DNA of 64,000 bases, taken from Paulownia fortunei. Taxonomy: Eukaryota; Streptophyta; Magnoliopsida; Lamiales; Paulowniaceae. The notes under the pieces were generated by a model, which saw only the letters and a program-made list of their open reading frames with translations, did no database searches and was not told the origin of the DNA. Below, in pieces: positions 30,577 to 54,472 of the stretch; position 1 is the stretch's first letter; every line of letters begins with the position of its first letter. The position numbers and the translations under genes are program-made. The DNA lies in the NCBI GenBank assembly GCA_019321725.1, contig CM033121.1, forward strand, positions 12,214,001-12,278,000, given 5' to 3'.

Positions 30577-30593
30577 TGGCGCCGTTGCCGGGG
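30577..30593 (+). other. Primer-binding site, tRNA-Asp type
   Basis: TGGCGCCGTTGCCGGGG lies six bases after the LTR. This is the characteristic Athila primer site, complementary to the 3' end of tRNA-Asp. Confidence 0.92.
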
Positions 30594-31850: not shown

Positions 31851-32510
31851 GACTTTGCAAGCATTTATGCATGAACAAACAAACATCAATAATCAGACTT
31901 CACAAGCTATCAATGAGATCAGAAGCACACTTTCAACACTGACAACTTCTTTGCGTACTCATGAAAAAGGTAAATTTCCTGCTCAACCTCAACCTAATCC
32001 TTCCTCAGTGTCATGTTTCTTCTTCAGGTGAAAATGCAGTCAAGGAGGCTAATTCAGTTACAACTCTTCGGAATGGAAAAGTTGTTGACAAGACTATTCA
32101 TCCCAAGGAGAAAGTTTCTAATCCACCTCCAGAAATGAAAAATGGAAATAGTCTTGACGATGAAGGTAAGTTTGAAGAAGGTAAGTTGAAAATGATGAAA
32201 AAAAAAATATTTACCTCCAGCACCCTTTCCTCAAAGATTGCAAGCAACTCAGAAATTGAACTCAAATGCTGAAATTTTTGAAATTTTTAAACAAGTCAAG
32301 ATTAATATTCCATTATTGGATGCAATCAAGCAAGTTCCACCTTATGCCAAATTTTTGAAAGATTTGTGTACAATCAAAAGAAAACATCATGTACAAAAGA
32401 AGGCATTTTTAACTGAAAGTGTTAGTTCAATCATTCAACAATTCACTCCACCAAGTACAAAGATCCAGGTTGTCCAACCATTTCATGTATCATAGGAAAC
32501 ACTAGAATAG
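31800..32510 (+). pseudogene. Athila gag C-terminus and gag-protease linker
   Basis: Three overlapping frames continue the polyprotein: a helical stretch with SIEETLQAFMHEQTN (31768-32031 frame), a linker with GENAVKEANSVTTLRNGK (31961-32272 frame), then LLDAIKQVPPYAKFLKDL (32238-32495 frame), the conserved block just before protease in Athila. Shifts are near 32015 (one extra base), in the A run at 32195-32210, and near 32485. I see no in-frame nonsense substitutions. Confidence 0.8.
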
Positions 32511-33126
32511 AGCGTGCTTTGCTTGATCTTGGTGCTAGTGTAAATCTTCTACCTTTCTCAGTTTATGAACAGTTAGGTTTGGGAGAACTTAAAACAACTT
32601 CTGTTGTACTCCAACTAGCTGACCGTTCGATTAAAGTTCCAAAGGGAATAGTAGAAGATGTGTTGGTACAAATTGATAAGTTTTACTTTCCAGTTGATTT
32701 CATTATTTTGGACACAGAGCCTGTTGCACAAACACATACACAAATTCCTATCATTTTGGGTCGTCCTTTTCTTGCAACTTCAAATGCTTTGATCAATTGT
32801 AGAAATGGTATTTTGAAGTTATCATTTGGAAATATGACTTTGGAACTAAATGTGTTTAATGTTTGTATGCAACCTGCAGAAGATGTCGAAGTACATGAAG
32901 TGGATTCAATTGAGGAACTTGTTCATGAATACTTTACTACTACTAACTCTTCAGATTCTTTGGAGACTTGTTTTGAAAGTGAAAGTATTTATAAAAAGGA
33001 ACACACTAATACTATCTCTGAATTTTTGCAGGTACAAGAAAAATATTTTTGGAAGCCAAGGTTCGAAGAACTTTCATCATCAACAGTAAAATCTATTCCA
33101 TCAAGTATTAAAGCTCCCGTGGTTGA
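32495..33126 (+). pseudogene. pro: Athila aspartic protease
   Basis: Cleaves the polyprotein. The reading frame contains IERALLDLGASVNLLP, whose D-(L)-G-A is the active-site motif (the usual D[ST]G is DLG in Athila), then LQLADRSIKVPKG, VDFIILD and IPIILGRPFLATSNALI, the expected order of a retropepsin-like fold. A spacer follows before RT. There is no start codon because it is part of gag-pol. The ATG at 32519 lies just inside the domain by chance. The domain looks complete. The frame breaks on both sides (near 32485, and 33128 where one T is missing). Confidence 0.88.
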
Positions 33127-33760
33127 TTGAAACCTTTGCCAGTTAATTTGAAATACTCTTTCTTGGGTGAGAATGAGACTTTTCCAGTAATAATTTCTTC
33201 CAAACTCGATGCATCTCAAGAAGGTAAGTTGATCGAAACTCTGAAAATGCATAAGAATGCTTTAGGATGGACCATTGCTGATATTAAAGGTATTAATCCT
33301 TTCATTTGCACACATAACATCTATCTAGAGGAAAATGCTAAACCATCTAGAGAAATGCAACGAAGGCTAAATCCTAATATGAAAGAAGTAGTAAGAAATG
33401 AAGTCATTAAACTCTTAGATAATGGAATCATTTATTCTATTTCTGATAGCAAATGGGTAAGTCCTACTCAAGTTGTACCTAAGAAATCTGGAGTTACTGT
33501 AGTCAAGAATGAGAATGATGAATTAATTCCAACTAGGACTGTTACTGGTTGGCGAATGTGCATTGACTATAGAAAACTCAACTCAGTTACTAGAAAAGAT
33601 CATTTTCCATTACCTTTCATGGATCAAATTTTAGAAAGAGTTGCGGACACGAATTTTATTGCTTTTTAGATGGATATTCTGGTATAATCAAATTGCAATT
33701 GCACTTGAAGATCAAGAGAAAAAACTTTTACATGTCCTTTTGGTACTTTTGCATATCGAA
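33127..33760 (+). pseudogene. pol: Athila reverse transcriptase, N-terminal part
   Basis: RNA-directed DNA polymerase. Frame 33127-33669 holds LGWTIADIKGINPFICTH, REMQRRLNPNMKEVV, SKWVSPTQVVPKKSG and WRMCIDYRKLN...HFPLPFMDQ, the fingers and first palm motifs in the correct order. A shift near 33665 and another near 33757 interrupt the [15 protein letters not shown] segment. Between them the nucleotide sequence still resembles the family but is out of frame. Confidence 0.9.
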
Positions 33761-34832
33761 GATGCCTTTTGGATTATGTAATGCACCAGCTACATTCCAA
33801 CGATGCATGCTTAGTATTTTTAGTGACATGGTTGAACGTTTTCTTGAAGTCTTCATGGATGATTTTTCTATTTTTGGTAATTCATTTGATGATTGCTTAT
33901 CTAATTTAGAAAAGGTTTTGATCAGGTGTGAAGAAAAGAATCTTGTGCTCAATTGGGAGAAATGTCACTTCATGGTAACAACTGGTATTGTTCTTGGACA
34001 CATTATATCATCAGAAGGTATTGAGGTTGACAAATCTAAAATTGAGTTAATTGCCAATTTGCCAACACCAAAGACTGTGAAGGAGATTAGATCATTTTTA
34101 GGACATGCTGGTTTTTATAGAAGATTTATCAAAGATTTTAGTATAATATCTAAACCTTTGTGTAATCTTCTAACAAAAGACACTATTTTTGAATGGACTG
34201 AAAACTGTGAAAATGCTTTTGTTAAGCTTAAAAGCATGCTTACGTCTGCTCCAATCATGCAGCCTCCAGATTGGACTTTACCTTTTGAAATAATGTGTGA
34301 TGCTAGTGATTATGCTGTTGGAGCTGTCTTGGGACAAAGAAAAGATAAAAAACCATATGTTATTTACTATGCAAGTAAAACTTTAAATGGTGCTCAATTG
34401 AATTATACAACAACTGAAAAAGAATTACTTGCTGTAGTTTTTGCATTGGATAAATTTCGATCTTATCTTGTTGGCTCACCAATTGTTGTTTTCAGTGATC
34501 ATGCAGCTTTGAAATATCTTTTGTCAAAAAAAGATGCTAAACCAAGACTGATTAGGTGGATTCTCTTACTCCAGGAATTTAATGTTACTATTCGAGATAA
34601 AAAGGGAGTAGAGAATGTAGTGGCTGATCATTTGTCGAGACTTGTTTGTGATGACTCATTTCAAACCACACCTATTAATGACACTTTCCCTGATGAACAA
34701 CTATTTAATGTTTCTATTTTACCTTGGTTTGCTGACATTGTTAATTTTCTTGTGACAGGAAAGATGCCATCGCATTGGAACTCTCAAGATAAAAAGAAGT
34801 TTTTGACTGAGGTTAAAAATTTTTTGGGATGA
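33760..34832 (+). pseudogene. pol: Athila reverse transcriptase C-terminal part and RNase H
   Basis: In-frame after [15 protein letters not shown]. The catalytic box FMDDF is at 33852-33866 (YxDD equivalent), followed by [40 protein letters not shown] and the thumb. RNase H follows from about 34280 ([16 protein letters not shown] with the first catalytic Asp; [18 protein letters not shown] with the Glu; [13 protein letters not shown] with the next Asp; VVADHLSRL at the end). All four classical blocks are visible. The frame ends at 34832 because the run of T near 34825 has changed length; copy 2 has FYWNDPYLF at this place. Confidence 0.93.
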
Positions 34833-36010
34833 TCCATACCTATTCAAATATTGTCCGGATCAAATCTTTCGAAGATGTGTGCCTGACAATGAGATAGGTA
34901 ATATTGTCAAATTTTGTCATTCAGAAGCATGTGGTGGTCATTTTTCTGTAAAGAAAACTACTGCAAAAATCTTGCAATGTGGATTTTATTGGCCAACTCT
35001 TTTCAAAGATACTTACACTTTCTGCAAAAGTTGTGAAAATTGTCAAAAGTTAGGGTCCCTTTCAAAGAGAAATATGATGCCCCTACACCCTATCCTAGTG
35101 ATTGAAATCTTTGACTGTTGGGGTATTGATTTTATGGGGCCATTTCCATTATCATTTGGTTTTCTTTACATATTGGTTGCCATAGATTATGTTTCAAAAT
35201 GGATCGAGGCAATTCCTTGTCGAAACAATGATCACAAAATAGTGATAAAATTTTTGAAAGAAAATATTTTAAGTCGATTTGGAATTCCTAGATCTATTAT
35301 CAGTGATGGGGGAAAACATTTTTGTAACAAAGTTTTCGAACTTTAATGAAGAAATATGGAATCATACATAAAGTTGCAACCCCTTATCACCCTCAGACAA
35401 ATGGACAAGTTGAACTTGCAAATAGGGAGATAAAACAAATTTTGGAGAAAACAGTTAACCCAAACCGTAAAGATTGGTCTCTTAGACTTACCGATACACT
35501 TTGGGCATATAGAACTGCTTTCAAAACATCATTAGGCATGTCTCCTTATAGGATAGTTTATGGAAAACCTTGTCATTTACCTGTTGAACTTGAACATAAA
35601 GCTTATTGGGCAATCAAAATGTTTAACTTCAACCTTGATGAAGCTTCAAAATTGCGCAAATTGCAAATCAATGAACTTCAAGAACTGAGAAATGATGCAT
35701 ATGAGAATTCTAAAATTTATAAAGCAAGAATCAAAGATTTTCATGATAATAAAATTTCAAGAAAAATATTTGAGGTTGGTCAAAAGGTTTTGCTTTATAA
35801 TTCTCGATTGCATTTGTTTCCTGAAAATTGAGATCAAGGTGGAGTGGTCCTTTTGTTGTAAAAAAAGTATATCCTTATGGGGCGATTGACATTGAGAATC
35901 CTAGAAATGGTAACATATTCAAAGTAAATGGACAAAGAGTTAAACCATTTCTAGAAAATCAATTTTCACAAGAGGAAATTCTTTTTCTTTCTAACCCTTG
36001 TTATGATTAG
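34833..36010 (+). pseudogene. pol: Athila integrase
   Basis: Inserts the cDNA. The N-terminal HHCC zinc domain is HSEACGGHF...CKSCENCQ (34918-35045). In the core, the first catalytic Asp is in GIDFMGPFP (~35125), the second in IISDGGKHF (~35300), and the Glu in [16 protein letters not shown] (~35390-35435). Then comes [22 protein letters not shown] and a C-terminal domain with [14 protein letters not shown] and RWSGPFVV. There are two shifts: near 35340 (a G missing before ACTTTAATG) and near 35829 (a G missing in CCTGAAAATTG; copy 2 has an extra G). It ends at TAG 36008-36010. No chromodomain, as expected for Athila. Confidence 0.92.
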
Positions 36011-36113: not shown

Positions 36114-36197
36114 GTCGGACTTGTCAGTTTCCCAAACAACTGAAATCTTTGTACAAATTTTCTTTGTTTTCTCATTCTCTTTTCTTGTTTTTTCAAA

Positions 36198-36741
36198 ATG
36201 GGTGACATTTTTCTAACTCTCAAGAAGCGATTTCCTTTTCTTCCTAAAAATGCAATTTTGAAAATTTATAAAATCAGGATTGAAAGATTGAGGATGCTTA
36301 TGCACAAGGGCATCCCGGAGGACATACGATGGATAATTGAAGCAAAGGTAAGGGCAGGTGAGTTTTCACATGAGTTTACTAGATACATGTCTGGTTTTGG
36401 TAAAAGCACATATTCAAAAAAACGAAGGGCAAAAAAATGAAAGTTTGTCATATTGTGCTAGATGGACTTGCAACACAAAGTGTCGTTCTTTAGGAATGGT
36501 CTCTAAAAATCGAGAAGATAAACTTAAATTCATTATGGATGGACTGAGTAAGGAGTCTTTAGATCACATTATATTGACTCTTGAGACGCATTCATGTGGA
36601 TTGGTACAACGTGCAATTCTTGATTTATGGGATCGTTTTCGAAATGAATATGAGCTTTATAGTCTTGGGAATCTGACATTAAAAGACCCTGTTTGCCAGT
36701 TTATAAGAAAACTGGATGGGAAGCATATCCTCGACCCATAG
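36198..36741 (+). pseudogene. ORF-A, conserved accessory protein of unknown family
   Basis: ATG 36198 (context CAAAATGGG) opens MGDIFLTLKKRFPFLPKN, followed by IYKIRIERLRMLMHKGIPED and a basic tail. A frame change near 36420-36440 leads to a second half with RWTCNTKCRSLGMVSKNRED, ESLDHIILTLETHSCGLV, AILDLWDRFRNEYELYSLG and FIRKLDGKHILDP. Copy 2 (47388-47947) keeps the same two halves and reads CHKCD-WTCNTKC at the joint, a possible CX2CX4CX3C zinc-binding site. The TAG at 36739 is shared by both copies, and the frame stays open for another 26 codons in both. I do not recognise the family. It occupies the env-like position of Athila elements, but no signal peptide or membrane segment is visible. 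Confidence 0.6.
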
Positions 36742-36975: not shown

Positions 36976-37624
36976 ATGAAGTTTCTTCAACTCGCAAATT
37001 TAATTCCATTTGTGTTTTTTGTGGATCCAATCTAGGAAAAAATGGTGAGTTTATAGGGGCAGCCAATAACCTTGGTAGAACTTTAGCAGAAAGAAAAATT
37101 CATTTAGTGTATGGGGAGGCAGTTTGGGGTTAATGGGGAGTGTTGCTATTTCTGCTTATGTAGGAGGTGTCAAAGTTTGGGAGTTATCCCAAAATCTTTA
37201 ACAGTACAGAATATCACAGGTATGACCATTGGAGATGAGCTAAAAGTGTCACATATTCAGGACAGAATGCCTAACATGTTAAACAATGCGGATGCATTCA
37301 TCATTCTACCTGCGGTTTTGGTACACTGGAGAATTATTCCAAATTGTCTCTTGGGCACAACTCAACATTCACCAAAAACCTATAGTATTCTTAATGTTAA
37401 TGGTTTTTATGATGGTTTGCTATCTTTTGTAGATCATGCTGTGAAAAAAGGGTTTTATTTCAACTTCTGCGAGAAGAATCATCATTTCTGCTCCAACACC
37501 TGACCAGCTGATTGATCAACTTCTAGCATATGTGCCAAAACCTGATCCAGCCTTGGCCAATGTGGATTGGTCCAACAGGAACAATGGTCGAAAACGCAAA
37601 TTGAATTTGACTCTCAGTCTGTGA
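36976..37624 (+). pseudogene. LOG: LOG-like cytokinin-activating enzyme gene, copy 1 (frameshifted)
   Basis: Related to LONELY GUY (cytokinin riboside 5'-monophosphate phosphoribohydrolase), which releases active cytokinin bases in plants. The ATG follows a run of A. In successive frames I read ICVFCGSNLGKNGEF, AANNLGRTLAERKIHLVYG, a GGSLGLMG block, VIPKSLTVQNITGMTIGDEL, DRMPNMLNNADAFIILP, the PGG..GTLEELF signature region, LLSFVDHAVKKG, RRIIISAPTPDQLIDQLL and WSNRNNGRKRKLNLTLSL-stop. This is the full LOG domain order at near-normal length (~210 codons). The conserved Arg before the DAF block is kept. About six or seven single-base changes break the frame. No introns are present, unlike host LOG genes, which suggests capture from RNA. 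Confidence 0.85.
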
Positions 37625-37730
37625 TACTTATTGTTAATGATTTTATCTAATAGTATGTGTTTTTTTTTGTTTCAGCTTTATTAGCCATTTCAGGTGATAT
37701 CTTTCAAACTCTACTTTCCTATCTATTTTT

Positions 37731-37769
37731 GACATTGGGGACAATGTCTCGATTAGGTTGGGGGAGGGA
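37731..37769 (+). other. Hairpin and internal polypurine-like tract, Athila 3' region
   Basis: GACATTG-GGGA-CAATGTC (37731-37748) can form a 7-bp stem with a 4-base loop. It is followed by GGTTGGGGGAGGG (37757-37769). Copy 2 keeps the purine tract (48967-48980), but its hairpin is weakened. Confidence 0.5.
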
Positions 37770-38141
37770 TAATTGATATCATGACTTGTATATTCAATGT
37801 GTGTTTTTTAGTATTAAAAAAATTAAAAAAAAATAAATAATAAATATAAATCAAGCGTGTTTTTTTATGGGTCCGTTGAAAGCATGAAAAAAGGTGGCTG
37901 AGTAAAGGGTAATTGTAACACTCTTGAGACGCATCCCTATTTTTTGCATAACATGGCAGGTTTGTAAAGTTTTTAACAATGTTTGTGAATTACCAATTTT
38001 TTTTTGAGTCGTATAGGTTCTTCCAACTTCAATGATTAAAATTAAGCATGAATAATATGGTTTGATTGATGATGGGTGTTGTTTTGACTTTGATGTTGTT
38101 ATTTGGTTAATATATTTTTGCGATAATTATACTCAAATTTA

Positions 38142-38241
38142 NNNNNNNNNNNNNNNNNNNNNNNNNNNNNNNNNNNNNNNNNNNNNNNNNNNNNNNNNNN
38201 NNNNNNNNNNNNNNNNNNNNNNNNNNNNNNNNNNNNNNNNN
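38142..38241. other. Assembly gap (100 N)
   Basis: Exactly 100 N, a conventional placeholder for a gap of unknown size. The left side is the Athila 3' region and the right side is an unrelated Gypsy LTR end, so the join is not sequence-supported. Confidence 1.
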
Positions 38242-38657
38242 GACTTGAGACCTCTAGTATACTGGCTAGCAGTGGAGCTCCCACAGGCTTTCAAAGATCA
38301 ATGTACTTAGATGACGACCTATTGGGGCTATTTTGTAAGCTGTGTTTTTTATTTTACAGTTATTGTATTATATTAGTGACTTTATCCTGTATATCACTTT
38401 CAAAACTCCTTTGTAATAGAAAGTTTAGGTTTGTGATGATTTTAATAGACTTGGTTAATGTTTAATAACTACATATGTATATACAGTGTGATAGAATATG
38501 AAAACACTTTATTTTTATCAATGTTTTGTTGAACTGAGTAGAAAAAAAAAAGTTATACACATGTATACATGCACAAATTATATTGCACAGGTTGTTTATA
38601 TATATATTTATACATATTGTGTATATATATTTATACATATTGTTGGGAGGTTGTGAC
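38242..38657 (+). repeat. 3' end of a third Gypsy LTR family (family C)
   Basis: The layout resembles the 3' part of family A LTRs (GGAGCTCCCACAGG... then GATGACGACCTATTGGGG) and it ends GTTGGGAGGTTGTGACA at 38657, a CA terminus. The remainder is lost in the gap. Orientation plus, opposite to the neighbouring family B piece. Confidence 0.55.
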
Positions 38658-40063
38658 AAGTCCACTTTGTGCTAAGTGAAAAGGTTAATCTCTTTGGAAG
38701 ATAAAATATGTTAAAGGTCTAACATAATCAAATTATGTACCATTTAATATCTTTTTATAAATTATTTAGTCTATTCTAATTAAAATCACATACACTTTTT
38801 AATTTTTTGTACACAATTCCATATCAATTACATAACCTTAAAAACAATGCATGCTCTGTATTTTACTACTAATTCAAGATATTAAACATTAGGGCAGTCA
38901 TTATATAACTAATAATTCAAGCATAATTTATTAGGGCAGCTCCTAAAATATGCACACAATTCAAATTAACATGACGTAAACTCGGTTCTAACTTAAATTG
39001 ATTGTAACCTTAAATTAAGCAACCTAATTGCTATTATTTTCAATCATTCATAGGAACTTCCAAATATAATATAAGCATTACAAGATCAATAGAAACAAGT
39101 AAATTAAGCATATTTCACAAGACTATCAATTTTGTTAAAACTAGCCTAACTAGCTTGGTTTTGCCTTCAAGTGTAACCTACTTAAGTTTTCAATCATACA
39201 AAAACATAATAAAATATGTAACCATCCAAGATACTACAAATTCATCATAAGAAATATTGAAAAAGAATATACCTTGATTAAGTTGGAATTAAGCTTCAAA
39301 ATCAATGATTTTGAAGCTTAAAAGGGTGGAAACTTGTTCTAGTTTGTGTTTTATAGATTCCTATGGATTGAATCCAATTTTTGTGAGTATAAGAGTGTAG
39401 AAATTTGGGAGAAACTTAGGAGAATAAGGGCTGGTAGTTTTTGAGGTGCTTCCACAAGAAATATGGATGAAAATGATTTCTTTGACCTTTCAAAGAGAGA
39501 TAAGTGGAGGGTGATGATTGGTTGCATCATGCTTGGTGTCTTCTCATGCCAAAAGCCACATTCATGGGTTAAGGAGATGACACAAAAAATGATGCTTTGG
39601 TGTTATAATCAAGTGCAATACGGTTTAAAATGATTTCATGCAACCTAGTCAACCAACTAATCAAATTGCCCCATAATACATACTTTTAGTTTTTAGGCAA
39701 ATATAACATATTTAAAGTAAATATTTAGGCAAATAATCACTTTAGAATGTAACAAGTATGGAGCAATATGAATAATTCATTTCATGGCCATTCAACACAT
39801 CAATCTTTTTTAATTGAGATACCGAGTTTTTCACTACAAAAAGGCACTTAAGGAATATGTTAAATCCAGAAACAAAAGTTTGATCTCATATTTCATGTAC
39901 TAATACATCTTAAAGCATAACTAGAGCATATAATAATAATTATTCAAGTTCATGCAATCATGCTATTTGTATGCTATAATTCAATAATACACATTGATTA
40001 AATGTATTTTCATACAAGATGTTTATTATTAGTTATGTAGGAGAGAATTGAGCATTACAATCC
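38658..40063 (-). repeat. Family B 3' LTR, truncated
   Basis: Reverse complement of roughly 49594-50985. Homology breaks at ACAAGTCCACTTTG near 38658. On the minus strand the purine-rich AAGGAATGAAGGAT (40064-40077) adjoins the LTR start as polypurine tract. Confidence 0.85.
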
Positions 40064-40147
40064 TTCATTCCTTATAAAAATTTCTGCCTCGAAATTTGAT
40101 GTACTAAATAATTCTGGATACTTGCTCTGCATTTCTTCTTCTTTTTC

Positions 40148-40962
40148 CTATGTGGCCTCTTCTACAGAATGATTCATCCATAATACTTTAACAAGTCGAA
40201 TCTTTTTCATTCTCAACTCCTTTTCCTTCTGATCTAGAATTTGCACTGGGTTCTCTATATAGGCTAAATCAGGAGTCAGTTCCAATGGTTCATGACTCAA
40301 CACATGAGAGAGGTTTGAAATGTACTTCCTTAACATAGACATATGGAAAACATTATGAACACTAGATAATGACGGAGGTAATCTTTATCACCAACTCTTT
40401 CGAGAATCTCGAATGGGCCAACATACCTTGGGCTTAGTTTTTCTTCCTTTCCAAATCTCATGACACCTTTCATGGGAGCTACTTTTAAGAACACATGATC
40501 CCCAACAACAAACTCTAGATCTTTTCTCCGTTTATCTGCATAACTTTTCTGTCTACTTTGCGCGATCTTCATTCTCTCCCGTATCTTTTCCACTACCGTA
40601 GCAGTATGTTGAACTATTTTTGGACCAAGTAGGCTTTGTTCTCTAACTTCATCCCAATGAACTGGAGATCTATATTTCCTTCCATACAATGCTTCATAAG
40701 ACGTAATTCCAATTGTTGATTGGTAGCTATTATTATAAGTAAAGTCCACTAATGGAAGCTTAGCATTCCAACTCCCTTGAAAATCTAGCACATAAGCTTT
40801 TAACATATCCTCTAATATGTGAATAACCCTATTTGATTGTCCATCACTTTGTGGATGAAATGTTGTACTAAATGCAAGTTTTGTTCCTATGGCACTGTGT
40901 AAGCTCTTCCAAAATATAGATGTAAACTTAGGATCTTTGACGGACACTATTGAAACTAGCAC
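40148..40962 (-). pseudogene. pol: Family B integrase core C-terminus and chromodomain
   Basis: Minus-strand frame 40962-40330 reads the integrase core: DPKFTSIFWKSLHSAIGTKL, FHPQSDGQSNRVIHILED, YNNSYQSTIGITSYEALYGR, then the post-core QSRQKSYADKRRKDLEF and GDHVFLKVAPMKGVMRFG. A shift leads to frame 40342-40148 with MSMLRKYISNLSHVLSHEPL and NPVQILDQKEKELRMKKIRL, VKVLWMNHSVEEAT, a Tekay/Del chromodomain that would bind modified histone H3. Two catalytic positions are altered: the Asp of SDRD-type motifs is Val (SIVSVKD), and the Glu after NGQS/DGQS is Asn (DGQSNR). The integrase would be inactive even if the frames were intact. Confidence 0.88.
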
Positions 40963-41144
40963 CCCATGTAACTTGACTATCTCTTTAACATATTGTTAAG
41001 CATATTGGTCCATATTATATGTTGATTTCACTGGAAGAAAATGGCTGATTTAGTTAATTTATCAACAATCACCCATATGGAATTATACTCCTTTTGTATT
41101 TTAGGTAATCCAAGCACAAAGTCCATTGTAATGTGCTCTCATTT

Positions 41145-41745
41145 CTACTGTGGAATCAACAAAGGCTTCAACAACCCTGATAGTCTTTGATGTTCAATCT
41201 TAACTTGTTGACAAGTTAGACATTCAGCCACAAATTTTGCTATATCTCTCTTCATTTTAGACCACCGATAATTTTGTTGTAAGTCCTTATATATTTTTGT
41301 GCTACCTGGATATACCAAGTAGGGAGTAGTATGAGCTTCTTCTAAAATATCTCTTTTCATGGCCTTGTCAAATGGCACACACAGTTTCTCTTTATATTGA
41401 ATAATTCCATCATTGGTAATAGAGAAGTCTGGCCTCTTTCTAGCATCAATCTTTCTTTTCAATCTACGCAAATGCATATCCACCTTCTGACCTTCTTTAA
41501 TTCTATCTTGAAGTGCAAGTCTCAACATTAAGACTGATAATGAATATTTTTTCGCTTTAGGTACAATTTCAAGCTCTAATCTCTGCAAATTCAGTAATAT
41601 TGACTTTTGTATAACAAAAAGAAAAGATGTGGATTTTTTGCTCAATGCATCTGCAACCACATTCGCTTTACCAGGATGATAGTTGATCACACAATCATAA
41701 TCCTACACAAGTTCTAACCATCTTCTTTGTCTCATATTTAGCTCT
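41145..41745 (-). pseudogene. pol: Family B RNaseH tail and integrase zinc domain
   Basis: Minus-strand frame 41690-41145 starts INYHPGKANVVADALSKK, the end of RNase H, then LRLALQDRIKEGQKVD and NDGIIQYKEKLCVP. It continues into the HHCC zinc domain (the first His is in EEAHTTPYLVYPGSTK, the cysteines in CLTCQQ). The second His (native PGSTKMY.D type) region is diverged. Upstream sequence to 41745 keeps the motif preceding INYHPGK, after which homology stops abruptly. Confidence 0.85.
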
Positions 41746-41754
41746 TTTTGGGTC

Positions 41755-41945
41755 AAGAAACAAAAGTTTGATATCATATTTCATGTACTAATACATGTTA
41801 AAGTATAACTAGAGCATATAATAACAATTATTCAAGTTCGTGCAATCATGCATTTGTATGCCATAATTCAATAATACACATTGATTAAATGCATATTCAT
41901 GCAAGATGCTTATTGTTGGCTATGTAGAAGAGAATTGGGCATTAT
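41755..41945 (-). repeat. Second family B LTR fragment
   Basis: About 190 bp nearly identical in order to 39873-40063, ending at ATTGGGCATTATA. It duplicates the start of the LTR next to the broken pol. I infer rearrangement or a second, mostly deleted insertion. Confidence 0.75.
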
Positions 41946-42560
41946 ATTTTTGGTCAAGAAAGCCATAGGTTTTGATATATCATCATCATCTTCTAGTTCC
42001 GACGTTGATTTTGGAACTTTAGCTTGAAAAGCAACATTGTTTCCTTTATCTCTCCTATTATGATTAATATTCAATTCAAATATTTGTAAAGAGCCCATCA
42101 ACTCATCCAGTTTCATGTTTTCAATATCACGGGCTTCTTCAAGGGCAATAACCTTATATGCAAATCTCTCGGATAGTGACCTTAACGCTTTTCGCACAAG
42201 TTGTATATCTGAGTATTTTTTGCCAAGTGCTTGAACTTCATTTGCTATATTGCATAGCTTTGTATTGAATGTGGCAATCGTCCTCACTCTCCTTCATTCC
42301 AATATCTTCAAATCTTGAGGCTAAAATTTGGAGTTTTGATATTCGCACTGCTATAGTTCCTTCATAGATAGTTTGTGGAATTTTCCAAGCCTCTTTTGCA
42401 CTCTCACGGTTTGTAATCAATTTAATTTTATTAACATCAATCGCAATAAAAATTACATTTAGGGCCTTTGAGTTGTAATTTGAAATTTTCTCCTCTTTAG
42501 TGTTCCATTGGTCTTCTGGAATAAGAACCTCTTCTTTCTGTTCATTTGTCATCATAGAAT
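41946..42560 (-). pseudogene. gag: Ty1/Copia gag remnant (minus strand)
   Basis: Two overlapping minus-strand frames form a Copia gag (UBN2-type). 42555-42238 has WNTKEEKISNYNSKALNVIF, ESAKEAWKIPQTIYEG and KLQILASRFEDIGM. 42287-41910 has FNTKLCNIANEVQALG, LVRKALRSLSERFAYKVIAL and ENMKLDELMGSLQIFELN. One shift lies near 42260. It is cut at 41946 before any zinc knuckle by the family B LTR fragment. Upstream on the minus strand are a primer-binding site and probable LTR. Confidence 0.85.
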
Positions 42561-42754
42561 ATTACCAACCTATTATAACAGCATGTCAAGCCCGTTCATC
42601 CACATTTAATGAAGGCTCATATATTTGTCTTCTAGTATGAGTAATTTGATCCTTCCAATAATGGAGATCAGGTAGTTGATGTCCTTTGCAAAGATGATCC
42701 ATTCCTGTATGTTAAACAGATCAATTCCAAAATCTCACTAAATGTATCTAGTGA

Positions 42755-42771
42755 CTAGCTCTTGATGCCAA
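42755..42771 (-). other. Primer-binding site of the minus-strand Copia element
   Basis: The minus strand reads TTGGCATCAAGAGCTAG, a degenerate tRNA-iMet complement, upstream of the gag. Confidence 0.6.
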
Positions 42772-42781
42772 TTATTAGATC

Positions 42782-43637
42782 TGTTTTAGCGCTACTACCA
42801 ACTTTACTTGTTAATTGGATTTAATTATTGTAATAATTGGATAGTTTGTTGCAAAAAGTAAAAGACAGTAATGTAAAAGACACAAGAGATTTTTATGTGT
42901 TTCAAGTACAAATGTACTCTACATGTACGAGGGAGGCCACCACCTGTAATGAATACTTTACTAATTCAAATTACAATTATTATAATGGGACTTATTCAAA
43001 ATGTAAAGACTCTCTCATTACTAATGACGCCGTTCTTGAACAAATTAATTAGTAAAGCTTCAGCAAGAACCCCTCGACTTTTAAGTCCACACTGTTGAAC
43101 TCTATTCAACACTAAAATCTCTTCAAATGTTAGACCGACCTTCTCCCAAAGATCTTCAAATTATTCTCCCAAAGAATTGTGCCAATCTCCAGAAAGGCTC
43201 ACCCTTTTCTCCCAAAGAGTGAATAAAACAAGATCAATCTCAAAGCTTGAAGCCACTTGCATCTTCTCACAAAAGGCAAGTACTTTTTCTAGTTCTTTGA
43301 GGTTTTCTTGTAGCATCAATTAAATTCAAATCTCCACCTCAAAAGTGTCTAAATACGCTACATAGATAATATAAGATATGTCAAGATTCTTTCTTATCAG
43401 TAAAAGATATTAACTTATCTTGTAAATAAAATCTTCAATTCTTTCCATCAATATAATCCAATCAAATCTGCACAAGCTAAACAAGATAATTAATTCATAT
43501 AAGGCCAATCAATAAAATAAATTAAATCTTGTGCAAGATAATAAGTTGTTAATCAATGCCAACTAATCAAATCATAATTAATTATGATCCCAAAATAATC
43601 AATTATGATTCTATCACAATCAAGCACAACATCAACA
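42782..43637 (-). repeat. Probable 5' LTR of the minus-strand Copia element
   Basis: On the minus strand the stretch begins TGTTGATG at 43637 and ends GCTAAAACA at 42782, giving TGTT...AACA ends beside the primer-binding site. No second LTR is present to confirm the limits. The sequence beyond 43638 is a different Copia copy in the opposite direction. Confidence 0.5.
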
Positions 43638-44151
43638 ATTAAGAGCATGTTATATCTGTGGCAAGAGTAAGCATATTGGTTGATTTTGGAAATATTGGAA
43701 TCCTAAGTCTATTCCACAAACTAACGTAACTTGAGAAGCCACTTGTGGCAATGATAACTAACGTAAACATGATTGAAAATGTTGATGGTTGGTGGATGGA
43801 TTCTAGGGCAAACAACTATATTTGCTATGAGAAATGTTGGTCCACGATTTATAGTCCTTTTGAGGAGCCTGAAACTCTTATGCTTGGTGATTCTCATACC
43901 ACCCAAGTACTTAGGATGGGAGAATTTGAGTTGAAATTCATCTCAGAAAGGTAATGAATTTGAAAAATGTGCTTTTTACTCATTTTGTGAGAAAGAATTT
44001 GATGTCTAGTTTTCTTCTTAACAAGGCTAGCTTCAAACAAATCATGGAATGTAATCAACTTGTGATTACTAAAAAAGGTGTTTTTATGGGCAAGGGGTAT
44101 GCATGTGATGGGATGTTGAAATTGAATGTTGAAATCTACTTTTGTTTATAC
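43638..44151 (+). pseudogene. Ty1/Copia zinc knuckle and protease remnant (plus strand)
   Basis: Starts RACYICGKSKHIG, the front of a CCHC knuckle. Then come NVMIENVDGWWMDSRANNY (the protease D-S-G is now D-S-R), PFEEPETLMLGDSHTTQV, and, after one shift near 43950, LKNVLFTHFVRKNLMSSFLLNK and ITKKGVFMGKGYACDGM from the protease/integrase linker. The catalytic Gly has become Arg. The integrase that should follow is deleted: RT homology starts within 140 bp. Confidence 0.8.
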
Positions 44152-44279
44152 GCTTTTTTCTACTAATTTGTGGCATGATGGTTTTTGTCATATTAATAAT
44201 CATTATGCAAAATCATGAGTTTCATATTACCATGAGGTTGTAAAACAATTGGGTGTAAATGGGTCCTTAGAAAAAGTTA

Positions 44280-44940
44280 AAATTGGATGGTGTTATTGAT
44301 AAATTTATGGTTAGACTAGTTACTAAAAGTTTCAAACAACTAGAAAGCTTAGAATTTTTGACACATATTATTCGGTTAATAGTAGTAACATCCATGAGAT
44401 TTTCGATTGCTAGTGATATAATTTTTTATTTGCATATTTATCTAATAGATGTGAAAATTGCATTCTTAAAAGGATCAAATGAAGGTTTCATAGAAGCCGG
44501 TCAAACAAGAAAATTATGTGAATTGATAAATTTATATATTACTTAAGAAAGGCATATAACTAATGGCATAAAAAGTTTGATGCATGATTAAGAATGATTA
44601 TAAACCGAATGAGTATGACAAGTGCATTTATCATAAGTCTTGGAGTAATTCACATGTGATTGTTTACCTCTATGTTGATGATTTATTGATTTCTAGCTGT
44701 AAATTGCATGTTATCAAGTAAACTAAAAACTTGATTAATGGCCACTTTGACATGAAAGATCTTCAGGAGGCAATTTTATTTTAGGTGTGATGGCATTTTC
44801 CTTAACCAGTCACATTATGTTGAGAAAATATTTTTCTATTTATTGTAAGTGTGTTGCAATTCCTTTTGATTCGAGTATTTACTTATTTAATGAAGATGAT
44901 TAATCAAAAGAAGTATGCTAACTTAATTGGAAGTTTAGAT
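44280..44940 (+). pseudogene. Ty1/Copia reverse transcriptase remnant (plus strand)
   Basis: Begins DGVIDKFMVRLVTKSFKQ (typical DGTIDKYKARLVAKG). It continues through IDVKIAFLKGSNEGF and, after stops, reaches CIYHKSWSNSHVIVYLYVDDLLIS with the YVDD catalytic box near 44670-44685, then KKYANLIGSL at 44910-44938. The RNase H end is missing. Confidence 0.8.
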
Positions 44941-45150
44941 GGAATGATTTGGATTTAAAGGGAGGATTTGGGGGAAATATTTCAAATTACTACATATAAG
45001 ATGGATTTAAAATCCACCACAATGACTCAAAAGATAACATAAAATAGGGCTTAAGAATTTGAAATCCATTGTATCATGAGATTATCCAAACAAGATTAAT
45101 GAATTCATTATTATGGATTTGAAATCCATCAATCCAAATGAAACCTAAAA
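44941..45150. other. A+T-rich spacer, possible MITE
   Basis: About 200 bp with ATTTGGATT near the left end, its complement AATCCAAAT near the right end, and internal GGATTT...AAATCC palindromes. It sits between Copia and Athila fragments. The inverted ends are too imperfect for a firm call. Confidence 0.3.
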
Positions 45151-45164
45151 GAAAATCATGTTAT

Positions 45165-45960
45165 ACCTTATACTCAATTGGGAGAAATGTCATTTCATGG
45201 TAACTATAGTATTATTGTTTGGCACATGATTTTGTCAAAAGGTATTAAAGTAGACAAATCTAAAATTTAATTAATTGTCAATTTGTCAATACCAATGTCT
45301 GTGAAGGAGGTAAGATCATTTTTAGGACATGATGGTTTTTATAGAAGATTTATCAAAGATTTTATTATAATATCTAAACCTTGTGTAATCTTCTAACAAA
45401 AGATACTATTTTTAAATGAACTGAAAATTGTGAAAATGCATTTGTTAAGCTTAAAAGCATGCAGCCTCCAAATTGGACTTTATAACTTTTGAAATAATGT
45501 GTGATGCCAAAGACTATGATATCGGAGCTGCATTAGGATAAAGAAAAGATAAGAAACCATATGTCATTTAGTATGCAAGTAAAACTTTGAATAGTACTCA
45601 ATCGAATTATTCAACAACTGAAAAATAATTACTTCTTGTTGTTTTTACATTGGACAATTTTAGATCTTATCTTGTTGGCTCACCAGTTGTTGTTTTAAGT
45701 GATCATGCAGTTTTGAAATATCTTTTGTCAAAAAATTATGTCAAACCTAGACTGATTAGGTGGATTCCCTTACTCTAGGAATTCATATTACGAATCAAGA
45801 TGAGAAACGAGTAGAGAATGTGGTGGCTGATCATTTGTTGAGACTTGTTGTGATGACTCATTTTAAACCACACCTATTAATGATACTTTCCCTGATGAAA
45901 AACTATTTAATGTTTCTATTTTACCTTGGTTTGCTGATCTTGTTAATTTTTTTATGATAC
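45165..45960 (+). pseudogene. pol: Athila copy 2 RT end and RNase H
   Basis: The nucleotide sequence follows copy 1 ([10 protein letters not shown] near 45176 to VVADHLLRL near 45822 and the linker after it), but with frameshifts and stops, for example AAATAATTACTT where copy 1 has AAAGAATTACTT, and CTCTAGGAATTC for the CTCCAGGAATTT of copy 1. A ~24-bp deletion near 45463 removes part of the RNaseH-proximal linker. It lacks the FMDDF box because truncation occurs downstream of it. Confidence 0.85.
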
Positions 45961-45989
45961 AAAAGATGCCACCATATTGGAATTCCCAA

Positions 45990-47165
45990 GATAGAAAGAA
46001 GTTTTTGACTGAGGTGAAAAACTTTTATTGGAATGATCCATACCTATTCAAACATTTTTCTGATCAAATCTTTCGGAGATGCATGCCTGACAATAAGAAA
46101 AATAATATTTTTAAATTTTGGCATTCGGGAGCGTGTGGTGACCACTTTTCGGCAAAGAAAATTGCTGCAAAGATCTTGCAATGTGGATTTTATTGGCCAA
46201 TTCTTTTCAAAAGTATCATTAATAGCGAAACCAAGGTAAAAGTAATCAAAGATACTTACATTTTTTTGCAAAAGTAGCGACAATTGTCAAAAGTTAGGAT
46301 ACATTTTAAAACGAAACATAATGCCCCTACACCCCATCCTAGTGATTGAAATCTTTGATTGTTGAGGTATTGACTTCATGGGACCATTTTTATTATTATT
46401 TGCTTTTATTTATACATTGGTCACCATAGATTATATCTCAAAATGGATCGAGGCAATTCTCTATCGAAATAATGATCACAGAATAGTGATAATTTTTTGA
46501 AAGAAAATATTTTAAGTCGATTTGGAATTTCTATATCTATTATTAGTGATGGGGGAAAACATTTTTGTAATGAAGTTTTTGGAACTTTAATGAGGAAATA
46601 TGGAATCATACATAAAGTTGCAATACCTTGTCACCCTCAGACAAATGGAAAAGTTGAACTTGTAAATAGAGAGAGATAAAATAAATTTTGGAAAAGACAA
46701 TTAACCCAAATCATAAAAATTGGTCTCTTAGAATTACTGATACACTTTGGGCATATAGAACTACTTTCAAAACATCATTAGGCATGTCTCTTTATAGGAT
46801 AGTTTATGAAAAACCTTGTCATCATTGGGCAATCAAAATGTTTAACTTCAACCTTGATGAAGTTTCAAAATTACGCAAATTACAAATCATTGAACTTCAA
46901 GAATTGAAAAATGATGCATATTAGAATTTTAAAATTCAGATTTAAAGAATTTCATGGAAATAAAATTTCAAGAAAAATATTTGACGTTGGTCAAAAAGTT
47001 TTTCTTTATAATTTTTTATTGCATTTATTTCTTGGAAAATTGAGATCAAGATGGAGTGGTCATTTTGTTGTAAAAGAGGTATATTCTTGTGGGGCGATTG
47101 AGATTGAGAATCCTAAAGGTAGAGAATCAATTTTCACAAGAGGAAATTCTTTTGCTTTCTAACCC
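45990..47165 (+). pseudogene. pol: Athila copy 2 integrase
   Basis: Recognisable words in four frames: [103 protein letters not shown]. Relative to copy 1 there is a ~37-bp insertion near 46210-46245 splitting the zinc domain, a ~33-bp deletion near 46822, and a ~50-bp deletion near 47118. The Trp codon of the first catalytic block is TGA. It is clearly dead. Confidence 0.88.
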
Positions 47166-47387
47166 TTGTTATGATTAGTATTTGTGTATATATATATATA
47201 CATATTTTTTTTAACTTTGTTTATTTTGTAGGCTTTCTTTCTTTTTTTTTCTTTTCTTTGCCTAGTTAAGTGGTGGATAACAATATTTTGTGGCTATTGA
47301 AGTCAGATATATCAGTTTCTCAAATAACTGAAATCTCTGTACAAAGTTTCTCTCTTTTTCTCATTCTCTTTTCTTGTTCTTTTCACA

Positions 47388-47947
47388 ATGGATGATATTC
47401 TTCTAACTCTCAAGAAATAATTTTATTTTCTTCCTAAAAATGTAATTTTAAATATTTATAAAACTATAATTGAAAGATTAAGGATGCTACTGCACAAGGG
47501 CATCCTAGGGGACATACGATGGATAATTGAAGCAAAGGTATAAGTGGCAGATGAGTTTTCATATGATTTTTCAAACTTGCTTACTAGATACATACCTGGT
47601 TTTAGTAACAACACATATTCAAAAAAATAAAGGGCAAAAAAATGCAAGTTTGTCACAAATGTGATTGATGGACTTGCAACACAAAGTGTCGTTCCTTAGG
47701 AATGGTTTCTAAAAATCGAGAAGATGAAATTCAATTCATTAAGAATGAACTGAGTAAGAAGTCTTTAGATAATATTATATTGACTTTTGAGACACATTCA
47801 TGTGGATTAGTATATCGTGTAATTCGTGATTTATGGAATCACTTTTGGGATGAATATGACCATTATAGTTTTGAGAATCTGATATTAAAAGACCATATTT
47901 TTTAGTTTATAAGAAAACTAGATGGGAAGCATATCCTTGACCCATAG
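47388..47947 (+). pseudogene. ORF-A, copy 2
   Basis: Starts MDDILLTLKK then TAA. Further words in phase with copy 1 are IIERLRMLLHKGI and RWIIEAKV, then across the joint CHKCD-stop-WTCNTKC, GMVSKNREDEIQFIKNELSKK and LDNIILTFETHSCGLV. The TAG at 47945-47947 corresponds exactly to that of copy 1, and 26 codons after it remain open to TAA at 48026. The second half survives as one open stretch from 47702. Function unknown. Confidence 0.55.
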
Positions 47948-48171
47948 AGGGTGTTTAAGTTGTTACTAGATGTAAAATCAGAGGAAGATGTGAGCCACAG
48001 TAACAACTACATTTACATTCACATGTAAGTAGCTAAAATTTAAATTTTGTGTCCTTATTTCAACTTTTCTGACAAAAGAAAAAGACGTGCAATAAATGCA
48101 TCCCATGTTCACACCTCAATAAATAGCACCGTACATGCTCTATTTTTGCACAACTCACTTTCAAAAAAAAA

Positions 48172-48824
48172 ATGAAAGTCTCTTTCACTCGCAAGTTCAA
48201 CTGTATTTGTCTTTTGTAGAATCCTTCGAGGAAAAAAATGGTGAGTTTATAGGGGCAACCAATAATCTTGGTAAAATGTTAGTAGAAAGAAAAATTCATT
48301 AGTATATAGGGGAGGCAGTCTAGGGTTAATAGAGAGTGTTACTACTTCTGCTCATGTAGGAGGAGTCAAAATTTTAGGAGTTATCCCAAAATATTTTACA
48401 GTACATAATATCACAGGTATGACCATCAGAGATGAGATAAAAATGTCACATATTCAGGACAAAATGCCTAATATATTAAACAATATGGATGCATTCATCA
48501 CTCTACCTGGTGGTTTTGGTACACTGGAGGAATTATTCCAAGTTGTCACTTGGGCACAACTCAACATTCACTAGAAACCTGTAGATATTCTTAATGCTAA
48601 TGGTTTCTTTGATAGTTTGCTATCTTTTGTAGATCATGCTATAGAAAAAGGTTTTATTTCAACGTCTATGAGACGAATTATGATTTCTGCTCCAACACCT
48701 GACCAACTGATTGATCAACTTCTGGCATATATATCAAAACCTGATCCAACATGGGCTCGTGTGGATTGGTCCAATAGAAGATAATGGTCAAAAAAGAAAA
48801 ATGAATTTGATTCTTAGCCTGTGA
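48172..48824 (+). pseudogene. LOG: LOG-like gene, copy 2
   Basis: The ATG at 48172 is in frame with the domain (MKVSFTRKFNCIC), which supports this start for copy 1 too. The signature LPGGFGTLEELFQVVTWAQL is intact near 48508-48565, with the catalytic Glu of PGGxGTxxE. Then come a stop in place of the Gln codon after NIH, ILNANGFFDSLLSFVDHAIE, STSMRRIMISAPTPDQLIDQ, and, after one shift, a C-terminus NLILSL-stop. Other lesions: a shift after ICL, and GTATATAGG and CTAGGG changes in the first glycine loop. It has the same length and order as copy 1 and no introns. Confidence 0.82.
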
Positions 48825-49593
48825 AATTTATCCTTAATGGTTTCAACTAATAGTGTATATATTATGTTATTTCAGCTTTACTTTCTAATAAGTCACATTT
48901 TAGGTAATAGCTTCTAAACTCTACTTTCCTATCTATTTTCGACTCTGGGGGCAATATCTCGATTAGGTTGGGGGAGGGGATAATTGATATCATGTCTTGT
49001 GTGTTCAATATGTATTTTTCTACTTTTTTTAAAAAAAAAATCAAACATGTTTTCTTTTTGGATCCATTGAAACCATGAAAAAGGGTGGTAGAGTAAAAGC
49101 TAACTTTAACACTCTTAAAATGTACCCCTATTTTTTTGTTTGCATAACATAGCAAGTTTGTGAAGTTTTTAACAAAAAATTGTGAATTATCAATTTCTTT
49201 TAAGTCGTATATGTTCTTCCATTTTTAATGATTAAAATTAAGCATGAATAATGTGGTTTAATTGATGATGCGTGTTGTTTTAAACTTTGATGGTGTTCTT
49301 TGGTTAATATATTTTTTTGGTAATTTTACTCAAATATTTTTGCACAAATAGTTATGTTATTCAGTGTGGAGACAAGCATGTAAAAATAGGTTGTTCTTAT
49401 ATTCTCTCTTTAATCATCACTTAGATTTTTTATATGTAAGGGTTGAGTGTTAGAACTTTTTCTTTTGGTTTGTCGAGGCGAACGACTCATTGAGCACTAC
49501 TTGAAAATGATTAACGCATTAGGCTTTCTAGCACCATGGCCAAATCAATTTGTTCCCCATGTGATGTTATAAGATAACATCCCCCACAGTAAG
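48825..49593 (+). other. Athila 3' untranslated region, first part (copy 2)
   Basis: Non-coding and collinear with 37625-38141 of copy 1 up to about 49340. Includes the polypurine-like GGTTGGGGGAGGGGA at 48967-48981. After 49340 it is known only from this copy. Open frames here are A+T-rich chance frames. Confidence 0.6.
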
Positions 49594-51889: not shown

Positions 51890-52837
51890 CCACTTTGAGC
51901 CTTTCATTAAATAAGCCTGTTTTGTGGTAACCATATCTTTCTACCTAGCCTAAATACACTATTATCCTACCCTTATTCTAAAAATAATTTGGAGCTTAAG
52001 AGATATTTTATTAACAAGGTGAGCTTGCAATAGAAATTTGGGTTGGAATAGAAGACAAGTACGGAGAGTTTCTCTTCTAAAAAAATATAAAATATAGTCG
52101 CAAAGTGTTAAAAATATTATGAATTGCAACTAAAAATAGGATGTTGCAAAATCAATAAGAATGATGAAGAGGGGTCCAATTCAATAAGAATAGGCCTTGG
52201 TGTTGAAATTCGTAAAGTATGAGAATTCTTCATTGATAAACTCTATATCTTTCATCCCATGAAGTTTTTAGAACTTTTGTTGCATCCTATTCTTTTATTT
52301 TTTAGCCACATCACTTCCCTTTGGCCCCATTACAACCTTTGTTGAAGATTTTTTAATTTTATATGGTGCCTTCGGTGTGGTGGAGATTTGTACCAAAGGA
52401 AGAGCCTATGATGTTTAACCGTTCCATTAGAGATTGAGTGATGGTTTTTGTGAGTCTATGGGATTTCACTTGTTTGAAGCATGTATGATTTCACCACTGT
52501 TGACATTAACTATTCACACACACACTTGAGTTGCTTACTGTGGAAATGTATTGACTTTTAAATGACTAAGGGTTAGATTCAATACTTATTTGATTTCATT
52601 TCTGTATTACTTTGTTGCTTTCTAAGAATAATGGTTGCAAGTTAGTTATTATAGGTATTTATAGGTATCACCGTTGGAAACCCTCGGGAGACTATAACTC
52701 GTCATCTATAGGCCACTTAGGGATTTAAAGGCTTATTGCACTTGTTAAATGCAATTGTGATTTCCTACGAAAATTGATTAGTTTAGATTTATTTTAGGCT
52801 TGCTCGAGGATGAGCAATGGTTAAGTGTGGGGGGATT
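51890..52837 (+). other. Athila 3' untranslated region, second part, with polypurine tract
   Basis: Non-coding sequence ending TTAAGTGTGGGGGGATT (52821-52837), the polypurine tract typical of Athila, directly before the LTR start TGATAAG. Preceded by GGCTTGCTCGAGGATGAGCA, also common in these elements. Confidence 0.75.
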
Positions 52838-54472
52838 TGATAAGTACATATTTTGGCATATTTTTGTATCAAATCTTTTCTACTTTTCTTGATTTATTCT
52901 TGTTAATATTATAGTTTTATTAATATTTTGTGCTAGTGAATCAAGAATAAAAAGATATCAAAAAGAGCCAAAATAAAATCAAAGAAAATAACACGTTTCG
53001 TGACCAAGTTGGGAGATAATATTATATTAGATCAAAGATGCATCACAATTAGAAGAAAAGGATTATTTTTTCCTAAGTCCATCATATGTAGATCAAAATA
53101 TATGCAAGACATCACTTGAACTTTGCAAGTGATTGTTGGCCTTGCATTAAATTCAAAATAAGTATATTTTCAAACTTGTACAGTTTTCATATTTTAGGTA
53201 TAACTCCATGTTCAAAAGCCCTATAGACTTGAATCTTACTTCATTTGAAATACAAGAGATAGAACTACAACTTTGGTGTTAGAAGCTCAGCCCAAGTCAG
53301 GCTTGATTAAAGTAGAAAGCTCGTTCAATTATGTGTATTGGAAGGGATCTATCTATGCTGACACATCTCTTTAAATTAAGCATAAATTTTTTCCTATTAG
53401 TTGGAATTAGGCTATTCAGGTTGAAAAATGAAGCTAACAGACAAATATACATTTTTCTTATAGATCACTTTTACAAATTCAGCTGATTTCATGGAAAAAT
53501 ATGTGTGACAAAATTTAGATCTGAAAAGGACAAGTATATTTAGAGCATATTTAATGTAAAATTGGAGTGCATTTGGAGTGAATTTGAAGATACAAATTTA
53601 GGCACTCTTCTACTATAAATAAGGGCTTTTGGATGTCATTGAAGATACACAAAAACACAAAATCCCTTAGATGGGTAAATAAAGTTTTATTGTTGTCTTT
53701 CTTTAGGCTATGTTTTCTAGTAGTAATGTAATTTTTTTAATAGTAATAGAAATGTATTCTCTAGTTTATCTTCTATATTTTAGTATTTTCTACTTTCATT
53801 ATATCTTTCTAAATTTTATTTAGTTGAGAAGAAAGGGGGAAACTCTTGATGGAGAAATACGAACGGTTATAAATATACATAATGTTTAAGTGTGTTGTAT
53901 TATTATTTTAATTTTTTATTAAACTCTCCATGTTTTATAGAGATCCTTGATTTATGTATTACCAAGGCACAATAAATACTTGGGTTCATTTAGCTTAATG
54001 TATAGTTCTACTACACCGATTGTTAGTATGAAACCTTGATTTATTATAAACAAAGATATGCATAAATACTTGATTCCATAAACAAGTATTGGTGTTAAGA
54101 GATAATTTATAAATATCAAGACAATATCATGATTCTCTTATTACATGAGCTATTTGATAATATCTTTTCATTGAAACCTTCATTATATATGGATTCCAAT
54201 AGTGGCATATAAAAGAGGTAAAAAGAATAATAAATAATCGTTCATCCATCCAAACTCAAGAGCGGATCCCTAATCCTTAGTACTTTTATTACATTGATTT
54301 CTTAGTTATAGCATAAATTTTTCTTTATAATCTAAATTACATTCAGCCCATCTTTTAAAAAATATAAATTCAAAAACTTCAAATAACTTTTCTATGAATC
54401 AACCTCGGACTTACGAGAAATTTATTAGTTGACACAACCTGCACTTAGATTTGCAACCTTAAAGTTATAGCA
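52838..54472 (+). repeat. 3' LTR of Athila copy 2
   Basis: TGATAAGTACATATTTTGG to CTTAAAGTTATAGCA, 1635 bp, homologous to 28978-30570. A TATA box at 53614-53621 (ACTATAAATAAGG) matches that of the other LTR. The flanking TCGGG does not match TCCCT before the other LTR. Confidence 0.9.

Follow-up and report, generated by a model that had tools for sequence, protein, structure and literature searches.

Element structure and LOG reading frames

The window analysed here, a stretch of 64,000 nucleotides from Paulownia fortunei (GCA_019321725.1, contig CM033121.1, positions 12,214,001 to 12,278,000), holds two related Ty3/gypsy retrotransposon copies (33942-38138 vs. 45167-49335, 82.1% identity), and in the matching place of both lies a reading frame of the LONELY GUY (LOG) family. 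The frame begins about 1.1 kb past integrase (in copy 1, 1.15 kb beyond the final integrase open stretch, end 35828), and both LOG copies are intron-free, as no insertion beyond a few bases interrupts them. The two LOG segments named in a preliminary description of this DNA were recovered at about the same coordinates (Table 1), and its proposal of a LOG coding sequence taken up ahead of the split between the two copies, and lying after integrase in an Athila-like element, was upheld. As judged from sequence, the capture is real, old and known in kind, and the remodelling of its product points away from ordinary cytokinin activation.

Copy 1 has gag, protease, reverse transcriptase (RT), RNase H and integrase in Ty3/gypsy order (Pfam, open stretches), with gag-pol (30954-35828) read from nine overlapping or touching open stretches; copy 2 is without gag and without the first part of RT. 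The LOG is an extra open reading frame (ORF) between integrase and the polypurine-like tract, as in the Athila clade. Tat elements are marked by a second RNase H of archaeal type, placed in angiosperm Tat after the first RNase H and ahead of integrase (PMC6317226); none was found in 33594-35343, where only the RT-type domain was matched (Pfam; no profile specific to the archaeal type was used). No chromodomain was detected in 35328-35828 (Pfam; scan stopped at 35828), and the Athila ORF-1 domain PF03078, which occurs in 16% of Athila elements (PMC6317226) and is not obligatory, was not matched anywhere in the open stretches examined. The element is described here as Athila-like, a Ty3/gypsy element with a captured LOG. 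Its primer binding site follows what we take to be a tRNA-Asp type pattern, presumably associated with Athila.

Table 1. Features of the two element copies in the window
Feature	Position	Strand	Basis
5' long terminal repeat (LTR), partial, abuts satellite DNA	28977..30570	+	In-order match to 52837-54472, three blocks, 79-88%
TATA-like CTATAAATA	29735	+	Inside 5' LTR of copy 1
Primer binding site	30577..30592	+	16/16 to tRNA-Asp type pattern; sole window match allowing ≤4 mismatches
gag	30954..31844	+	PF03732, 1.4e-24
Aspartic protease	32426..33127	+	PF13650, 3.1e-06
Reverse transcriptase (part) and RNase H	33594..34829	+	PF00078, 1.9e-15; PF17917, 1.9e-37
Integrase zinc-binding domain and core	34807..35343	+	PF17921, 6.1e-14; PF00665, 2.5e-12
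Integrase, remainder	35328..35828	+	Open frame; first part collinear with Primulina model P0210
Middle reading frame, two overlapping frames	36198..36738	+	Pfam: nothing reaching cut-off
LOG reading frame, copy 1	36976..37624	+	208/210 aligned codons identical to P0003
C-terminal basic and LxLxL tail, copy 1	37589..37621	+	Sequence; tail common to relatives
Polypurine-tract-like TTGGGGGAGGG, copy 1	37758..37768	+	Plus-strand occurrences here and at 48968 only
Element copy 2, part of RT to 3' region	45167..49335	+	82.1% to 33942-38138
LOG reading frame, copy 2, diverged	48172..48824	+	PF03641, 4.1e-16 (48275-48571); 165/215 codons identical to P0003
C-terminal basic and LxLxL tail, copy 2	48789..48821	+	Sequence
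LTR-like sequence downstream of copy 2	52837..54472	+	In-order match to 5' LTR region

The two LOG copies were compared with P0003, a P. fortunei protein of 217 amino acids, of which copy 1 covers residues 2-217 and copy 2 residues 1-217. In copy 1 the alignment shows six length changes of one base each and zero in-frame stops, and the first ATG is not in the frame of the coding sequence that follows it. As length changes exceed substitutions, long-read assembly error or very recent damage seems a better explanation than decay over a long time; 3 of the 6 changes are found no more than 3 bases away from a run of at least 4 equal bases, compared with 28% of background positions, which is a weak indication. 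Copy 2 is truly diverged, with one stop and four short length changes, and its catalytic Arg is replaced by Lys. Both copies are broken in their present form. The last base of a run of 16 A (36961-36976) is also the first base of the LOG start codon in copy 1, and a shorter A run occupies the equivalent site of copy 2.

Relatives and origin of the element LOG

The best 120 of 5915 matches from a first protein search (E < 0.001) were sorted into 80 element-type and 40 host-type rows. A tree of the 110 rows of at least 185 amino acids separated 70 element-type from 40 host rows (support 100/100), and the 10 shorter rows (Reevesia, Orobanche) were assigned without a tree. Relatives from Paulownia, Rehmannia, Orobanche (three species), Reevesia, Pterospermum and Diplodiscus were among the matches listed, with full-length ones in Paulownia, Rehmannia, Orobanche and Malvaceae, and the relatives listed fall in Lamiales and Malvales (families Paulowniaceae, Orobanchaceae and Malvaceae). 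Single clusters comprise 328 (Orobanche minor), 244 (O. hederae) and 327 (Pterospermum) member sequences, as expected because these are repeats. The best 120 of 4509 matches from a second search were mostly host LOG7, since the query alignment (A1) mixed host and element rows; this search added five Xanthoceras (Sapindales) models, two of which were scanned and found to have two LOG stretches each. A third search, with P0013 placed behind padding, gave 10 long proteins, of which two, from Primulina eburnea and P. tabacum (P0210, P0211), hold RNase H, integrase core and LOG fused in one protein; the other 8 show no retroelement domain as listed. A scan of viral contigs with P0003 gave 10 pattern matches and no relative.

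P0210 could be aligned to the RNase H-integrase region of both window copies, with five blocks at 51-85% for copy 1 and blocks at 41-71% for copy 2, and its LOG was 52% identical to that of copy 2. In the Xanthoceras models P0123 and P0124 a gag-pol linker stands between the two LOG domains, with 26/36 and 25/35 residues identical to the translated window at 32199-32492. The preliminary description had asked for a clade whose members all lie beside integrase and Athila LTRs: the split from host LOGs was borne out (below), and an element neighbourhood was seen in the window, the two Primulina models and the two Xanthoceras models. Most other relatives presumably lie in elements as well.

For a second tree, 62 rows were chosen from those fetched, near-duplicates and short rows being omitted. 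The 31 element-type rows (7 Xanthoceras domains included) formed one clade (100/89), against 30 plant LOGs (AtLOG3 and AtLOG8 included) and one Pseudomonas LOG. Xanthoceras is the first branch within the element clade, although long branches call for care. Because element-type LOGs form one clade against host and bacterial LOGs, a single ancient capture of a host LOG is likely, and the anatomy and single capture, taken together, are held with high confidence. Primulina (Lamiales) clusters with Malvaceae-type rows, apart from the other Lamiales; two or more old sublineages, or else some horizontal movement, must therefore be assumed. Six Citrus proteins considered as element copies (P0068, P0070, P0071, P0100, P0101, P0106) were rejected, as they group with host LOG7.

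Seven Rehmannia proteins (P0013-P0016, P0025, P0041, P0057) are element-type LOGs with UniRef names starting "Cytokinin riboside 5'-monophosp". Some database entries for cytokinin riboside 5'-monophosphate phosphoribohydrolase, e.g., these from Rehmannia, are thus probably retrotransposon copies, and host LOG gene counts are therefore probably inflated.

Catalytic and pocket residues

Membership in the LOG family was indicated by PF03641 in copy 2, by the LOG fold of the relative P0001, and by the catalytic Arg/Glu and PGGxGTxxE in 13/13 subclade representatives. The AlphaFold model of P0001 (alignment A1) had a pLDDT of 85 and the LOG fold, with 2a33_B as best PDB match (TMt 0.94, 1.4 Å). In CgLOG, catalysis is proposed to depend on Arg99 and Glu122, the adenine site consists of Met96, Lys100 and Glu121, and the prenyl site of Met96, His97, Lys100, Glu125 and Trp129 (PMC4979012). 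Residues were scored in 78 pattern-readable rows of 80 element-type rows given, and in 117 of 119 host rows given, host rows P0128-P0206 being assigned by source names and similarity and not all by tree.

All scored residues (His97, Trp129, Arg99, Lys100, Glu121, Glu122 and Glu125) were kept in 117/117 host rows. In element-type rows Lys100 and Glu125 were each kept in 0/78, whereas Glu121 and Glu122 were kept in 78/78, Arg99 in 67/78, Trp129 in 39/78 and His97 in 14/78. The 13 representatives have a mean pairwise identity of 58% (lowest 45%). Among them R99, PGG.GT and EE were invariant at 7/7 positions, compared with 47/216 columns overall (hypergeometric P = 1.6e-5), and pocket positions at 0/5; in 13/13, Lys100 was replaced by a hydrophobic residue and Glu125 by Gln or His. 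The preliminary description had proposed that the element brings its own cytokinin-releasing enzyme, a function made doubtful by the replacement of these two adenine/prenyl pocket residues in every element-type row scored.

C-terminal tail

The sequence LxLxL, or DLNLTP in P0031, terminates 10 of the 13 representatives, after a variable linker and mostly behind a basic stretch; the tail is absent in the Orobanche representative, and the Reevesia and Primulina models end early. Both window copies retain it. Among all element-type rows, LxLx[LP] stands at the very end in 30/80 vs. 0/119 host rows, LxL is present in 59/80 vs. 1/119, and a basic pattern within the last 16 residues in 56/80 vs. 2/119. 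When element tails were shuffled, LxLxL or DLNxxP arose in 4.3%. Xanthoceras model P0122, which reads on beyond the domain, has no such tail. In the P0001 model the tail is of low confidence (pLDDT < 50 at 205-211 and 215-217). The EAR consensus is LxLxL or DLNx(x)P, and LDLNLTP is given for ZCT1 and ZCT2 (PMC9956375); the element tail looks like a match to this repressor consensus.

Interpretation and alternative explanations

In the reading favoured here, a single ancient uptake would have brought the coding sequence of a host LOG into an Athila-type lineage, where it has since stayed in the stretch from integrase to the 3' polypurine tract. As Xanthoceras keeps Lys and Glu, the pocket would have changed after this branch, with loss of the adenine/prenyl Lys and Glu; the catalytic Arg and Glu and the PGGxGT loop, which binds phosphate, would have been retained. 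The C-terminal basic residues and LxLxL would also have been gained after the Xanthoceras split, and later eroded in the main Orobanche group. The remodelled LOG may bind or cleave another nucleotide, its basic stretch may give nuclear entry, and its tail may recruit a TOPLESS-type corepressor, which could help the element to manage host expression or defence. From the residue changes, loss of ordinary cytokinin activation in the window-type LOG is somewhat probable, whereas a corepressor role of the tail, suggested by its motif, is tentative. The reading as a whole, a repurposed LOG that is not mainly a cytokinin activator and perhaps recruits a corepressor, is plausible and falls a little short of an even chance. 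Its most specific form, a LOG turned into the nuclear effector of the element, with rebuilt pocket and TOPLESS-recruiting EAR tail, that would quiet host genes or steer the element's own chromatin and be kept in asterids and rosids, is speculative and on the unlikely side.

Several observations weigh against this reading. Xanthoceras retains Lys and Glu at 9/9 domain sites, and the pocket change is therefore not universal in element LOGs; the catalytic Arg is missing in 11/78 element-type rows. The tail counts come from element rows that are not independent, and LxLxL is short. Outside Orobanche the LxLx[LP] end is found in 29/40 rows, the 11/40 without it being models of 157-208 amino acids; in Orobanche 1/40 rows has the full motif and 39/40 lack it, FLSL or a close variant forming the end of 32 of these. 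The ratio of nonsynonymous to synonymous divergence (dN/dS, Nei-Gojobori) between the LOG window copies was 0.49 (codon bootstrap 0.30-0.88, 7/500 at ≥1), and neutral simulation with the observed transition bias had a median of 0.68, with 85/1000 at or below 0.49, so that the purifying selection sought in the preliminary description could not be told from neutrality in this pair. Copy-to-copy difference was likewise similar in the LOG (15.2%) and in 3' non-coding sequence (16.0%).

For comparison, wrong-frame readings of the LOG gave dN/dS of 0.77 and 0.72, and the two middle frames 0.78 and 0.59, with both intervals crossing 1 and thus not distinguishable from 1; pooled pol pieces gave 0.36 (0.27-0.48, 0/400 at ≥1), a value without neutral simulation. 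Cross-species invariance of the catalytic core indirectly supports constraint, as survivorship of intact models would presumably be insufficient on its own to produce it.

That the captured gene is a functionless hitchhiker, carried along while decaying, would agree with the broken state of both window copies, with a LOG divergence equal to that of the non-coding flanks and with the non-significant dN/dS test. It is made very improbable by full-length frames in Paulowniaceae, Orobanchaceae and Malvaceae, by a catalytic core that is invariant in 13 representatives at pairwise identities down to 45%, and by the difference between copy 1 and P0003 at 2/210 aligned codons. A chance Athila insertion beside host LOG pseudogenes, or an assembly artefact, could be suspected from the N gap in the window and the error-like length changes of copy 1; the identical order in both window copies, together with LOG and integrase in one model in two Primulina species, largely refutes it and leaves it hardly credible.

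A view in line with the preliminary description, that the protein is still a working cytokinin-activating LOG which would raise local active cytokinin and promote division or meristem competence in the cells where the element replicates, draws on the LOG fold (top PDB match 2a33, TMt 0.94), the kept catalytic Arg-Glu and phosphate loop, and the intact Lys and Glu of Xanthoceras at 9/9 domain sites. However, Lys100 and Glu125 of the adenine/prenyl site (PMC4979012) are replaced in 78/78 window-type rows, and the new tail is left unexplained; this view is considered unlikely, and a repurposed protein appears to fit better than a plain activator, which is doubtful. The same catalytic and phosphate residues, with the hydrophobic residue at Lys100 and Gln/His at Glu125 in 13/13 representatives, would also suit a nucleotide 5'-monophosphate hydrolase of altered substrate, acting in the cytosol or particle (e.g., on nucleotide pools for reverse transcription), with a tail that has no corepressor role; some plant LOGs release mainly riboside rather than base (PMC11593424). 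This would not account for the basic and LxLxL/DLNLTP end past a variable linker in 10/13 representatives, and such a hydrolase is judged rather improbable.

Other features of the window

The window consists of plant repeat DNA. Satellite DNA in arrays, its units about 483-494 bases long, occupies 8-3480, 15408-19276 and approximately 28450-28979, the last adjoining the 5' LTR of copy 1. A TATA-like CTATAAAAG at 36106, about 90 bases upstream of the middle-frame ATG of copy 1 and altered in copy 2, might act as an internal promoter from which a short RNA spanning the middle frame and the LOG is made. P0001, P0002 and P0011 are contained in ENA contigs of 1730-1743 bases, a size that would fit such a putative RNA. 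The tRNA scan of the window found none, and the Rfam scan gave a single weak match, full-length to plant snoRNA R71, on the minus strand within gag (31168-31276; 42.6 bits vs. a cut-off of 40), which may be chance. Each Athila copy is immediately followed by one of two sequences (38657-40059 and 49594-50982) that are inverted copies, 86% alike. Integrase pieces of Ty3/gypsy type, broken and with a Tf2-type SH3 domain, stand beside copia-type gag (40333-42561, minus; 57074-59380, plus), and a second broken copia element is also present.

Comparison with known systems

For most extra ORFs in plant retrotransposons no function is known. The element LOG has a recognised fold and a short tail with a testable partner; its full-length copies are spread over asterids and rosids, and its pocket change can be located on a tree. 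For antisense extra ORFs, too, a function is mostly not known (PMC7264820), and the main text of that paper makes no mention of YgdH, LOG or lysine decarboxylase. The novelty suggested in the preliminary description for a LOG in an LTR retrotransposon falls, because the YgdH domain, which is linked to LONELY GUY, was already reported for LTR retrotransposons, in consensus sequences from two Citrus species and, when no filter was applied, from Populus (Alvarado-Marchena, 2022; PMC9289625), a finding in line with a 2011 survey cited there. Like those of the window, the Citrus and Populus elements are plant Ty3/gypsy elements with a domain of the LOG family; the parts of that paper covered describe no pocket changes, no C-terminal tail and no Lamiales/Malvaceae members (PMC9289625). 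In open-licence literature (titles and abstracts; queries not worded for pocket change) no description of a pocket change or tail in element LOGs was found, and no additional source on element LOGs came up. The abstract of the 2011 survey (Steinbauerova) is said to report two Athila-like elements similar to LOGL4. It is not known to describe pocket changes, a tail or Lamiales/Malvaceae members, and the LOG-like ORFs of that survey may share such features.

Host LOG7, LOG3 and LOG8 share the fold, the catalytic Arg-Glu and PGGxGTxxE with the element LOG, which differs from them in being intron-free and inside an element (window), in its replaced Lys100 and Glu125, in its basic LxLxL tail and in its separate clade. 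Gypsy elements of Phalaenopsis with an m6A demethylase (AlkB) are similar in that an enzyme domain is present as an extra ORF, but the enzyme is another one and its activity has been shown in vitro (PMC9289625). The TOPLESS-binding effectors Jsi1 (PMC8126959) and HaRxL21 (PMC7446885) resemble the element LOG in the proposed recruitment of a host corepressor; they are secreted pathogen proteins with reported binding, whereas the element LOG is known by its motif alone. If the proposal is true, a retrotransposon would use a corepressor-recruiting protein as some pathogens do.

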